From Lysobacterales bacterium (lineage in GTDB: Bacteria; Pseudomonadota; Gammaproteobacteria; Xanthomonadales; Marinicellaceae): DNA of 43,293 bases. The DNA lies in contig JALSHI010000063.1 of assembly GCA_026982315.1 (NCBI GenBank), positions 1-43,293 on the forward strand, written 5' to 3'. How positions within the stretch are numbered: position 1 is the first letter of the stretch; every line of letters starts with the position of its first letter. Shown here piece by piece: positions 26,666 to 30,394 of this stretch. A program made the position numbers and the translations under genes. Below the pieces are notes generated by a model that was not told the DNA's origin, did not search any database, and was given only the letters and a program-made list of their open reading frames with translations.

Positions 26666-26683
26666 CACTGCCACAAAAGACCG

Positions 26684-26703
26684 GTCACAACAAACACTGT
26701 GAC
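26684..26703. repeat. Inverted repeat upstream of the ankyrin-sigma unit
   Basis: GTCACA (26684-26689), 8-bp spacer, TGTGAC (26698-26703), about 50 bp before the candidate -10. Possible operator, or a stem at the end of the preceding transcript; there is no T run. Confidence 0.3.
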
Positions 26704-26753
26704 GAAGGTTTACGGAATAAGGCCGGTTAATGTTTCTTTAATTCCACTAAGGG

Positions 26754-26759
26754 GATAAT
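26754..26759 (+). promoter_or_regulatory. Candidate -10 of the ankyrin-sigma unit
   Basis: GATAAT (5/6 of TATAAT) 30 bp before ATG 26789, with no good -35. I could not recognise a GGAAC-type ECF -35. Confidence 0.35.
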
Positions 26760-26788
26760 ATAGGCCGCGCACTGTACAGGTTGTCGAA

Positions 26789-28384
26789 ATGACCAAGAAC
26801 TTCACGGAAGAATTACTGAACTGCTGCGCCCATGGCCCGCTGGACAAGGTAAAAACACTCCTGCGCCAGGGCGCCAGCGTGGATGTCCGCAACCCGCGGG
26901 GACATACCTTGTTGCAAGTGGCTTTGCGCCACGGCCAATGGGGTGTAGCCCGCTATTTACATCGTAAATACCCGCAACTGGCCACAGTCAACAGCCAACG
27001 GCTTCCCTGTTTGCTGGCGGCAAGCCAAAACAAGAAAGACGACCCTGAAGGTTTGGAGCTCTGCCTGTCCAGACTGGGCGGTTCCCTGAATGACACGGAC
27101 GCTCATGGCCGCAGCGCCTTGCTCACTGCCTGTCTGCAGGGCCACTTGAAAAAAACCAAATGGCTGCTGGCCCGCGGGGCTGATGTGAACCAGGCCGACC
27201 AAACCGGCCGAACCGCGCTGATGGAAGCCACCGAAGCCAGTCATGTGGCCCTGGTGCGCGCCTTGCTCAAGGCCGGCGCCCAGCCCAATGCCGCTGATGG
27301 CAACGGCGATACGGCGCTGCTGTGCGCCATGCGCGCAAAAAAACCCAACCTGACACTGATTAAAATGCTGCTTGGCAACCAGGCCGACCCGGAACAGCGG
27401 AATCATCAGGGTGTCAGCCCCTGGTTACTGGCCAAGCAAAAGCATAAACAGGCGCTGGAGGTCATTGAAAAGCACATCAACAGCCAACGCCAAATCGAAT
27501 TGCCGCTTTTTGACAGCACGGCACAAAATAAAAAGTCAACACAAGCCATTACCACAGCCCATATGTCCGCAACCATAAAACCTTCAGGCAAAAACAGGAT
27601 GGAGAATCATGTCCGCACCACTGCCACTCCCTTGGCTCCCGCCCCCAAAGAACAGGACCTAAAAACCTGGTTTGCCGCCGCCCGCAGCGGCCATATGGGC
27701 ACACTCAACCGCCTTTTGCTTAACGGCATGGACATTAACGCCGTGGACAAACAAGGCTGCACCGCCGTGATTCGTGCCGCCGGCGCCGGTCACCGCGCGA
27801 CCGTGGCCTTCTTGCTGCAACGAAAAGCGGATATTCACCACCGATCCAATAATGGCAGCACTGTTTTATCTGCTGCCATTCTGGCCAATCAACGGACGAT
27901 CTGCCGGCTTTTGCTTAAGCACGGTGCCGATGCCTCCGGAACCGGGCCAGGCAATGTGCCGCTGGTATTGCTGGCGGCTGCTCAATGGAGCGAGGATCAA
28001 TTGCTGGCCTTGCACCAGCAAGGCGCCGACTTGTCAGTGCAAGACAAACAGAAAAGAACCGCCCTTCATTGCGCGGCACTGGCTTGTGAGTTTCAGCACA
28101 ATCTACCCGCAGGCAAGGCGCTTTTTCAATTCCTTCTGCAACATCATCTGGACTTGACCCAGCCGGATAGTCACGGCCTAACCCCGCTGGAAATACTCTG
28201 TGGCGGACATAAACCCCATGCCTACCAGGCGCCGGACAGTCGCGTTGCGACACTCTTGCATTCCATACTACAATTGCCGGCAGCAGCAGGCGTAATACAC
28301 GCGCTCATGCCGAAACTACTCGCTAGCTGCGAGCGCCACGGCCTGAGTCATACACGGGGGATTTTGCTGGCAGGGGGATCATGA
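26789..28384 (+). CDS. Ankyrin-repeat protein with two repeat blocks
   Basis: 531 aa with no signal peptide or membrane segment, so cytoplasmic. Two ankyrin blocks: residues about 1-225 (for example GRSALLTACLQGHLKKTKWLLARGADVN and GRTALMEATEASHVALVRALLKAGAQPN) and about 290-475 (GCTAVIRAAGAGHRATVAFLLQRKADIH, GSTVLSAAILANQRTICRLLLKHGAD, KRTALHCAALACE). They are separated by a polar linker rich in Thr, Lys and Asn (about 228-288) and followed by a helical C-terminus. Ankyrin arrays bind proteins; no catalytic domain is seen. The stop TGA overlaps the ATG of the sigma-factor gene (ATGA), which implies coupled translation and a joint function. Confidence 0.88.
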   Translation: MTKNFTEELLNCCAHGPLDKVKTLLRQGASVDVRNPRGHTLLQVALRHGQWGVARYLHRKYPQLATVNSQRLPCLLAASQNKKDDPEGLELCLSRLGGSLNDTDAHGRSALLTACLQGHLKKTKWLLARGADVNQADQTGRTALMEATEASHVALVRALLKAGAQPNAADGNGDTALLCAMRAKKPNLTLIKMLLGNQADPEQRNHQGVSPWLLAKQKHKQALEVIEKHINSQRQIELPLFDSTAQNKKSTQAITTAHMSATIKPSGKNRMENHVRTTATPLAPAPKEQDLKTWFAAARSGHMGTLNRLLLNGMDINAVDKQGCTAVIRAAGAGHRATVAFLLQRKADIHHRSNNGSTVLSAAILANQRTICRLLLKHGADASGTGPGNVPLVLLAAAQWSEDQLLALHQQGADLSVQDKQKRTALHCAALACEFQHNLPAGKALFQFLLQHHLDLTQPDSHGLTPLEILCGGHKPHAYQAPDSRVATLLHSILQLPAAAGVIHALMPKLLASCERHGLSHTRGILLAGGS

Positions 28385-28929
28385 AGCGCACCAAAAAACA
28401 ACTCGAACACCTTTTTTACGAACATAAAACACTCATTGTCCGGGCGGTGGCCGCCCACCGTCCCAATATCCCTGGTATCACCGCCGATGATGTCGAACAG
28501 GAAGTGTGTATTCGTTTGTGGAATACCCTGAAAAATGACCGGCAGATTGACAATCCTGCGTCTTATATTTACAGAATGACAGCCAATGTCATTATCGACC
28601 TGGCACGCAAAAATCAACGCCACAGCAATGAAACCAAACTGCCCCATGAAGGCGATGAAGATTGTCACCGGGCCGAACTGGAATCAAGCACCGCTTCACC
28701 GGAGGCGCACATTTTCAGTGAGGAGAAGGTACGGCAAATTATGGCCGTGATTAACACCTTGAACGAAAACCGACGCACTGCAGTCAAACTGCGTTTGCAG
28801 GGGTTTTCCATCAAGGAAATCAGTGAAATTACCGGCTGGTCGTTTTATAAGGCCGAGAACCTTTCCAAACGGGCATTTACCGCTTTGAAGGCCAAACTCA
28901 AGGAATTGGGCATTGAATATGACAACTGA
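28381..28929 (+). CDS. ECF-type sigma-70 family factor
   Basis: 182 aa, with sigma region 2 and region 4 only. Region 2: DDVEQEVCIRLWNTL (36-50, core-binding) and NPASYIYRMTANVIIDLARKNQR (58-80, the -10 binding part). A variable acidic linker (86-112) leads to region 4: NTLNENRRTAVKLRLQGFSIKEISEITGWSFYKAENLSKRAFTALKAKL with its helix-turn-helix at about 143-165. The -35-reading helix (GWSFYKAENLSKRA) differs from the common GVSxxTVRSRLSRA. Overlaps the ankyrin gene by four bases and the following membrane-protein gene by eleven. Target promoters are unknown; self-regulation would be usual for the family. Confidence 0.9.
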   Translation: MKRTKKQLEHLFYEHKTLIVRAVAAHRPNIPGITADDVEQEVCIRLWNTLKNDRQIDNPASYIYRMTANVIIDLARKNQRHSNETKLPHEGDEDCHRAELESSTASPEAHIFSEEKVRQIMAVINTLNENRRTAVKLRLQGFSIKEISEITGWSFYKAENLSKRAFTALKAKLKELGIEYDN

Positions 28930-29452
28930 CACGCAATCAACCCCGAAAAAACAGACAACCATGACACTCAACCAGGATGAGTTGGATGAGTTGGCTGCCT
29001 TGTTCCAGCAACATACACGAAATGGCCAGGCTTCGCTGGACGCTGTTTTTCTCGCCCCGGCGGCCTCTGACAGACGCATTGCCTATGCCGAAAAACTGGC
29101 TGAAGATGCTCTCGCCTGTCAGGCCCTCAAACTGGCCAATCGTCTCAAGCCCTGGAGCACAGCTATTGGCAGACGACTGGCACACACTTCTCCGTTGTCC
29201 CATCCTTGGTGGAAACCAATCCGCTGGCTGGGGTTGGGGCTGGCCTGTGCGGTACTGGCCATGGTCGTGATGACGCCCCAATGGCAAAAAGGCATGCAGC
29301 CTGCCGACCAGGATACCTTTTTTGCCGGTCATTTTGAGCGGACTCAGCCAGCCAATGAGCACATTTTCACTGAAAGTTTCGCCCCGGCTATCAAGGACGA
29401 ACCACTTTTCAAAGCACATTTTGACAGAGCCGGGCCTGATTACCAGTCCTGA
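28919..29452 (+). CDS. Single-pass membrane protein, possible anti-sigma factor
   Basis: Not matched to a known family. 177 aa: a cytoplasmic N-terminal part (1-100) with an acidic helix (LNQDELDELAALFQQHT) and a second helix, one transmembrane segment (about 103-119, WLGLGLACAVLAMVVM), and a C-terminal tail of about 55 residues, probably periplasmic. The tail has three tandem repeats (132-146, 147-160, 161-174) of the form [DE]-x-[FIL]-F-x-x-[HS]-F-[EAD]-[RP]. Topology and position directly after an ECF sigma gene suggest an anti-sigma factor, but the zinc HxxxCxxC motif of the common anti-sigma domain is absent. Start taken as ATG 28919 inside the sigma gene; an intrinsic terminator follows. 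The name rests on context, not on homology. Confidence 0.75.
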   Translation: MTTDTQSTPKKQTTMTLNQDELDELAALFQQHTRNGQASLDAVFLAPAASDRRIAYAEKLAEDALACQALKLANRLKPWSTAIGRRLAHTSPLSHPWWKPIRWLGLGLACAVLAMVVMTPQWQKGMQPADQDTFFAGHFERTQPANEHIFTESFAPAIKDEPLFKAHFDRAGPDYQS

Positions 29453-29460
29453 CAAAGCAT

Positions 29461-29492
29461 AATCGGCCACCAGTATGGTGGCCATTATTTTT
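29461..29492 (+). terminator. Terminator of the ankyrin-sigma-membrane protein unit
   Basis: GGCCACC (29465-29471), loop AGTAT, GGTGGCC (29477-29483), then ATTATTTTT. It lies 8 bp after the stop. Confidence 0.92.
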
Positions 29493-29545: not shown

Positions 29546-30394
29546 ATGGCATTTGACCCGTCCCCACCGGCCAGTATCCAGAACCTCCTGCACCGGGCCT
29601 GCCACACCTGGGGGCTGTCGCGTCTGGATGCTGAATTACTCCTGGCCATGGCATTGGGGAAGCCTCGAAGCTGGCTGTATGCCTGGCCTGAACACATTCC
29701 CGGACCAGCCATCCAAGAGACTTTTATCCAGCTGACGCAACAGCGCGCCGCAGGAAAACCCCTGGCCTATCTGACCGGCCACAAGGAGTTTTACGGCCTG
29801 GATTTACAGCTAAGCCCGGATGCCCTGATACCCCGCCCGGATACCGAAACCCTGGTGGATACAGCCATCGAGATCATCGACCGCCACAAGGCCAGGCGTA
29901 TTCTGGATTTGGGCACGGGCAGTGGCGCCATTGCCCTGGCCATCAAGTCCCAATGCCCGGCATGTGATGTCTGGGCTAGCGATGTCTCTTCCCAGGCGCT
30001 TGGCGTCGCACGCAACAATGCCAAACGTCTGGGCTTGTCGGTGCATTTTTGCCAGGGATGCTGGTTCGATGCCATCCCCATGAATTGCGGCCCTTTCGAT
30101 CTGATTGTCAGCAACCCGCCCTATATCGCCCCGGATGATGGCCATTTGGAAGCCTTGTCTCATGAACCCAGGCACGCCCTGGTGGCCCATAACCACGGCT
30201 TGGCAGACTTGTTTGAAATTATTGACCAGACACCGAAATATCTTGCTGACGGTGGCTTTGTGTGGCTGGAACACGGACACACACAAGGCGCGGCCGTGCG
30301 GGAACGATTCCATGAACGTGGTTATCAAGCCATTGAATCCCGGCATGATTTAGCCGGGCTTGAACGCATTACCGGCGCGCGCCTGTATCCCTGA
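29546..30394 (+). CDS. prmC: Release factor glutamine methyltransferase PrmC
   Basis: Methylates the glutamine of the GGQ motif in RF1 and RF2 with S-adenosylmethionine, raising the rate of termination. N-terminal helical release-factor-binding domain (1-80, including RLDAELLLAMALGKPRSWLYAWPE), AdoMet motif ILDLGTGSGAIALAI (about 118-132) and the NPPY glutamine-binding motif (SNPPYIAPDD). 282 aa. In most gammaproteobacteria prmC follows prfA; here it stands alone between the sigma unit and convergent recG, 34 bp from the recG stop. Start ATG 29546 has only a weak ribosome site. Confidence 0.95.
   Translation: MAFDPSPPASIQNLLHRACHTWGLSRLDAELLLAMALGKPRSWLYAWPEHIPGPAIQETFIQLTQQRAAGKPLAYLTGHKEFYGLDLQLSPDALIPRPDTETLVDTAIEIIDRHKARRILDLGTGSGAIALAIKSQCPACDVWASDVSSQALGVARNNAKRLGLSVHFCQGCWFDAIPMNCGPFDLIVSNPPYIAPDDGHLEALSHEPRHALVAHNHGLADLFEIIDQTPKYLADGGFVWLEHGHTQGAAVRERFHERGYQAIESRHDLAGLERITGARLYP

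Follow-up and report, generated by a model that had tools for sequence, protein, structure and literature searches.

The window analysed here, a stretch of 43,293 nucleotides from a Lysobacterales bacterium (GenBank assembly GCA_026982315.1, contig JALSHI010000063.1), carries a compact unit of three genes on the forward (+) strand, each beginning with ATG. An ankyrin-repeat protein of 531 residues, predicted to be cytoplasmic, is encoded first (26789–28384), followed by an ECF-type sigma factor of 182 residues (28381–28929) and a single-pass membrane protein of 177 residues (28919–29452), which is a predicted anti-sigma factor without a zinc motif. The original prediction had described these reading frames as overlapping by 4 and 11 bp, and the coordinates agreed: the ankyrin and sigma genes share the 4 bp of an ATGA, and the sigma and membrane-protein genes share 11 bp. 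An intrinsic terminator had been placed directly behind the unit, and a GC-rich hairpin of 8 pairs (6 of them GC) followed by a T-rich stretch was indeed located at 29465–29483 (+), between the membrane-protein gene and prmC (29546–30394, +; PrmC_N and methyltransferase domains), a conserved downstream neighbour that is not part of the mechanism discussed below. The candidate promoter proposed in front of the unit was not confirmed, as a consensus scan of the gap at 26666–26788 turned up no sigma-70 match scoring at least 9/12. A TAAT-rich stretch in this gap is suggestive of a promoter at most, and the gap in front of the ankyrin gene was not conserved, even within the same genus. No sign of a defence system was seen at the locus.

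The second gene had been read as an ECF sigma factor, and its product matched the Pfam models Sigma70_r2 and r4_2 as well as TIGR02937 (sigma70-ECF) at 69 bits against a cutoff of 42.9. It contains only sigma regions 2 and 4, its 182 residues fall within the size range of the class (about 180–200 aa), and its profile also matched solved ECF sigma factors, e.g., RpoE (1or7_A). Relatives in other families share 30–41% identity with the window sigma factor (P0002) and have no ankyrin gene beside them. A literature search for an ankyrin-linked ECF group returned nothing relevant. In one genome (G021, loci L012/L070), the aligned sigma region contained a single in-frame stop and the frame ended early, because of either a fault in the assembly or damage to the gene; many of the compared genomes are MAGs.

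A search of 61 relatives detected the sigma gene in 31 of the 33 genomes of its own family (f1). The order ankyrin–sigma–membrane protein–prmC was kept in f1 wherever the contig was long enough, and the membrane-protein gene lay directly downstream of the sigma gene in all 22 aligned f1 loci. The predicted linkage of the three genes is therefore a conserved order across the family. Because of this conservation a chance arrangement was excluded, and the unit is very probably a real, inherited sigma/anti-sigma switch. One f1 member (G003) lacked the sigma gene, the ankyrin gene and the C-terminal tag described below.

The ankyrin protein and the predicted anti-sigma factor

Pfam Ank families matched the first protein at residues of about 2–234 and 288–530, which upholds the description of two repeat blocks, and the AlphaFold model (mean pLDDT 85) showed two solenoids joined by a disordered linker (pLDDT <50 at residues 235–282). 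The protein lacks a signal peptide and probably resides in the cytoplasm. Orthologues scoring 640–830 bits were present in 31 of the 33 f1 genomes, the exceptions being G003, where the gene was lost together with the unit, and G011, whose contig ends inside the unit and hides the gene from the count. The best matches outside f1 reached 161 bits, were mostly proteins of about 1,100–1,300 residues and were unlinked to sigma genes where positions were compared. As judged from these searches, the ankyrin gene is specific to f1; since it is fixed in that family only and was never seen beside the sigma gene elsewhere, the core unit is the two-gene sigma/anti-sigma pair. The ankyrin protein is a candidate regulator of this pair. 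The disordered linker starts with the peptide QIELPLF (27491–27511, +), which follows the near-invariant pattern Q[IML]ELP[LIF]F, with Q235, E237, L238, P239 and F241 invariant in the alignment. This is likely to be a docking peptide for a partner, and it presumably resembles sliding-clamp-binding peptides. Large ankyrin proteins (about 1,100–1,180 aa) that are similar to the second ankyrin block and do not lie near a sigma gene were widespread in families f12 and f2 (e.g., G067:C1:395200–395898). Hits against the MzaA and Legionella Ank effector models scored far under their cutoffs and were dismissed as reflecting generic repeats.

The third gene very probably encodes an anti-sigma factor without a zinc motif, in agreement with what had been proposed for it. 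Outside f1, the sigma gene is followed, nearly always with an overlap, by a gene for a single-pass protein of 134–210 residues, and this adjacency was seen in ten families of the order; genes of class I anti-sigma factors likewise adjoin and usually overlap the ECF gene. The f1 alignment matched the other-family (type I) versions along the whole length (hhalign 98.2%, E 3e-14), and these matched the zinc-type (Cx2C) versions over the N-terminal 80 residues (hhalign 95.8%, E 7e-9); compared directly, the f1 and zinc-type alignments gave 1.5%, which was not significant, so that the chain to the zinc type is indirect. The Hx3Cx2C motif was absent from the window membrane protein (P0003) and from the f1 alignment, and the Cx2C motif was present in the type II relatives and in L147. 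Searches with the zinc-type alignment gave no Pfam match above cutoff, and the third protein itself had no match in Pfam, NCBIfam or PADLOC.

The predicted cytoplasmic anti-sigma domain comprises residues 1–95 (28919–29203, +), with predicted helices at 19–35, 40–45, 51–62 and 64–90. The transmembrane span follows at about residues 101–119 (29219–29275, +; hydropathy 1.95 over 19 residues) and corresponds to a helix at 96–121 in the structure model. This model (pLDDT about 65–80, pTM 0.29) was too weak to yield a fold match in the PDB by Foldseek or VIA-align. Class I anti-sigma domains (ASDI) consist of helices 1–3 plus helix 4, exist in zinc and non-zinc versions and are mostly membrane bound (PMC7406223). 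For the window protein, the model predicts a layout of this kind, four helices followed by a transmembrane span, at moderate confidence; the protein differs from ASDI proteins in its tandem tag-like tail repeats and in having no library-model match. Among the relatives, the anti-sigma factor L147 (family f9) carries both a zinc-type Cx2C motif and a tag-like tail, bridging the two types. A further arrangement was observed in f4, f5 and f11 (L054, L056, L063, L065, L066), in which a related sigma factor is followed by a tail-less, mostly zinc-type anti-sigma factor and then by a TPR-CHAT protein; these loci are possibly a protease-linked sigma system.

C-terminal tag of exported proteins and tail repeats of the predicted anti-sigma factor

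A common C-terminal tag, D-x-[IV]-F-x-x-G-F-E-COOH, is carried by signal-peptide proteins from these genomes that are unrelated to one another. In the genome that contains the window, a search at the DNA level for [FLIMV]-F-x-x-G-F-[ED]-stop yielded nine sites, in comparison to one for the reversed control, and eight of the nine read D-L-I-F-x-H-G-F-E, though D had not been part of the search pattern. All nine tagged proteins start in a signal-peptide-like manner, one of them of the twin-arginine kind, according to a crude hydropathy rule combined with inspection. They belong to the M12B, M14 and S8 peptidases, endonuclease I, glucose/sorbosone dehydrogenase, DUF1501, Vps10-like and P-domain proteins. 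No NCBIfam or Pfam model covered the tag when the tagged C-termini were searched, a literature search for the tag gave nothing relevant, and the tag appears to be undescribed. In 364 genomes sampled from the class outside the order, none had more than one site under a stricter pattern, i.e., the rest of the class is practically free of the tag. PEP-CTERM, LPXTG and GlyGly-CTERM are likewise short C-terminal motifs found on many unrelated exported proteins; in these systems the motif precedes a transmembrane helix and a basic tail, whereas the tag described here ends the protein, with no hydrophobic helix or basic cluster behind it. The conserved part spans about 9 residues and matched no C-terminal-domain model, in contrast to the domains of type IX cargo. 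The tag, or a variant of it, was also noted at the end of secreted-looking proteins (about 900–1,000 aa) encoded close to the zinc-type sigma loci L062, L063, L065, L066 and L146.

A similar motif recurs in the predicted anti-sigma factor. Behind its transmembrane span, the window protein carries three stretches that resemble the tag, DTFFAGHFE (29312–29338, +), EHIFTESFA (29357–29383, +) and EPLFKAHFD (29399–29425, +), in a tail that was unstructured in the model and would lie outside the cytoplasm. Nearly all members, from ten families, carry two to four such repeats, which follow D-x-[LI]-F-x-x-x-F-[GED] or depart from it slightly; the repeats vary between members, and in most but not all cases the final repeat stands at the C-terminus. 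At least two such motifs in the last 75 residues were present in 29 of the 3,439 distinct ORFs of at least 100 aa from the window and the fetched loci, and 27 of these were the anti-sigma factors by inspection. The tails fitted the tag matrix better than shuffled tails in all cases tested (p <= 0.039, mostly <= 0.007). Tail and tag share D, [IL], F and F at the same spacing, but the position before the second F, G in the tag, is mostly another residue in the tail, and in place of the final E the tail often has G or D. These differences would fit an imitation of the tag that is not processed. The tail repeats had been missed in the original prediction and are the best clue to the signal.

The sigma gene and the tag were found largely in the same genomes. 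Across 299 genomes of the order, 70 had both, 5 the sigma gene only, 13 the tag only and 211 neither (p = 3e-48; thresholds of at least 100 bits for sigma and at least 4 sites for the tag), counts that rest on a handful of independent gains and losses and not on 70 events. The number of tags per genome reached 63, in comparison to 0–3 for the reversed control. The association also held for hand-grouped genera (27 with both, 1 sigma only, 6 tag only, 51 neither; p = 3e-15) and was perfect within f12 (10/0/0/66 in the same order) and f2 (2/0/0/76). Incomplete sequence or a contig break affects several of the genomes with the tag only (G011, G072, G084, G099); the true exceptions are G056 and some f8 and f9 genomes. 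Tail-type anti-sigma factors were not found in the tag-rich f5 genomes (G036, G047, G063) or in G056, G132, G160 and G168. Family f5 has the tags and a related sigma factor but only tail-less anti-sigma factors. In f9, the tailed anti-sigma factor L147 (G101) accompanies 6 tags, in comparison to 0 and 2 tags for the tail-less L148 and L149.

Proposed mechanism and alternative explanations

From the operon-like gene order, the homology, the tail repeats, the tag on exported proteins and the co-occurrence, all of them read from sequence, we infer a switch of which the binding, topology, signal, regulon and ankyrin role are conditional throughout. The third protein, consisting of a non-zinc cytoplasmic N-terminal domain, one span and a disordered outer tail, would retain the sigma factor at the inner membrane. 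This tail would display tandem look-alikes of the 9-residue tag put on exported enzymes and would bind whichever receptor, sorter or protease recognises the tag. The state of the anti-sigma factor may thereby report how busy the tag-reading machinery is: when tagged proteins compete for the reader, or when the reader is missing, the anti-sigma factor would be altered or cleaved, and the freed sigma factor would adjust the export pathway. Competition of tail and tagged exports for one reader is suggested because the tail itself looks like the tag. In f1, the operon would have gained the ankyrin gene at its front, and the cytoplasmic ankyrin protein would be a third component of the switch. We give about an even chance to the central claim that the anti-sigma factor imitates the tag and reports on the handling of tagged exports. 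The full version, in which a Lysobacterales tag has its own feedback switch, the tandem imitations sense reader load and an ankyrin subunit was added in one family, falls in our judgement just short of that. The conserved neighbours of the sigma loci were searched for the tag-reading machinery and none was identified among them; they comprised only prfC, a CBS-domain gene and the TPR-CHAT gene beside zinc-type pairs. In f3, f4 and f12 (L051, L053, L057, L058, L059, L061), the sigma/anti-sigma pair faces a convergent prfC gene (release factor 3), a conserved synteny.

An ordinary envelope-stress pair would have the same membrane anti-sigma architecture, with coupling as in RseA/DegS (PMC8103513). 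Regulated proteolysis would then follow general damage, the repeats in the tail, which is unstructured in the model, would serve only as a protease recognition or degradation signal, and their likeness to the tag would stem from one periplasmic protease trimming both. A general stress sensor, however, need not track the tag from lineage to lineage, and the sigma gene and the tag are both absent from most f2 and f12 genomes; we regard this explanation as rather unlikely. The co-occurrence could also arise if the sigma factor transcribed the tagged genes and the tail motif docked an unrelated periplasmic partner, its likeness to the tag being coincidental. Tagged ORFs do lie within 6 kb of some other-family sigma loci (L051, L052, L062, L065, L138, L146), but no common ECF-type GGAAC/GTC promoter, which would indicate autoregulation, was found in front of the sigma operons compared, and neither the shared spacing of D, [IL], F and F nor the better fit of tails than of shuffled controls would be expected from coincidence. 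This account is unlikely in our view.

The ankyrin protein might exert the main control, as a scaffold or partner switch that binds the sigma or anti-sigma factor in the cytoplasm and is possibly tethered elsewhere via QIELPLF. It is the first gene of the unit in every checkable f1 genome, was lost with the unit in G003 and has a near-invariant peptide in its disordered linker; yet it is absent beside the same sigma/anti-sigma pair in other families and is hence not needed for the core switch, and the clamp likeness of the peptide is a tentative one. We hold this to be quite improbable. That the third protein is a membrane effector or target, and that only transcription or else the ankyrin protein governs the sigma factor, would agree with the lack of matching Pfam or NCBIfam anti-sigma models and with the only moderate confidence of the structure model. 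Against it stand the profile chain to zinc-type versions, the location of the gene immediately behind that of the sigma factor in all families and the predicted four helices followed by a transmembrane span, a layout described for class I; this reading strikes us as highly improbable.

Several elements of the preferred mechanism, a switch whose anti-sigma factor would imitate the export tag, have counterparts in known systems. ECF sigma factors are held by membrane anti-sigma factors, and in E. coli their release is started by C-terminal peptides of exported proteins, those of outer-membrane proteins triggering the cleavage of RseA through DegS (PMC8103513). The unit shares with RpoE-RseA-DegS an ECF sigma factor and a single-pass, non-zinc anti-sigma factor, and C-terminal export peptides, the signal in E. 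coli, are proposed as the signal here; it differs in that the E. coli peptide binds the protease DegS and that no ankyrin gene is present there. RseA is not known to carry tandem look-alikes of the DegS-binding peptide. In the control of type IX secretion (PorXY-SigP, PorA), a protein with a cargo C-terminal domain, PorA, feeds into ECF sigma signalling (PMC7712824). The Bacteroidetes system likewise ties an ECF sigma factor to a C-terminal signal and has a signalling protein that bears a cargo-like signal, but a two-component system feeds SigP, a whole C-terminal domain takes the place of the 9 residues, and the phylum is another one. The new element here would be an ECF switch that is coupled to an apparently undescribed export tag.

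If the proposal is true, a large order of environmental bacteria would possess a protein-sorting route with a built-in sensor, in which many exported peptidases, nucleases and other enzymes are tagged. It would also provide a handle on the tag-reading machinery, as any binding partner of the tail would be expected to recognise the tag as well. The imitation of a cargo signal would then join the known ways in which anti-sigma factors perceive the envelope.
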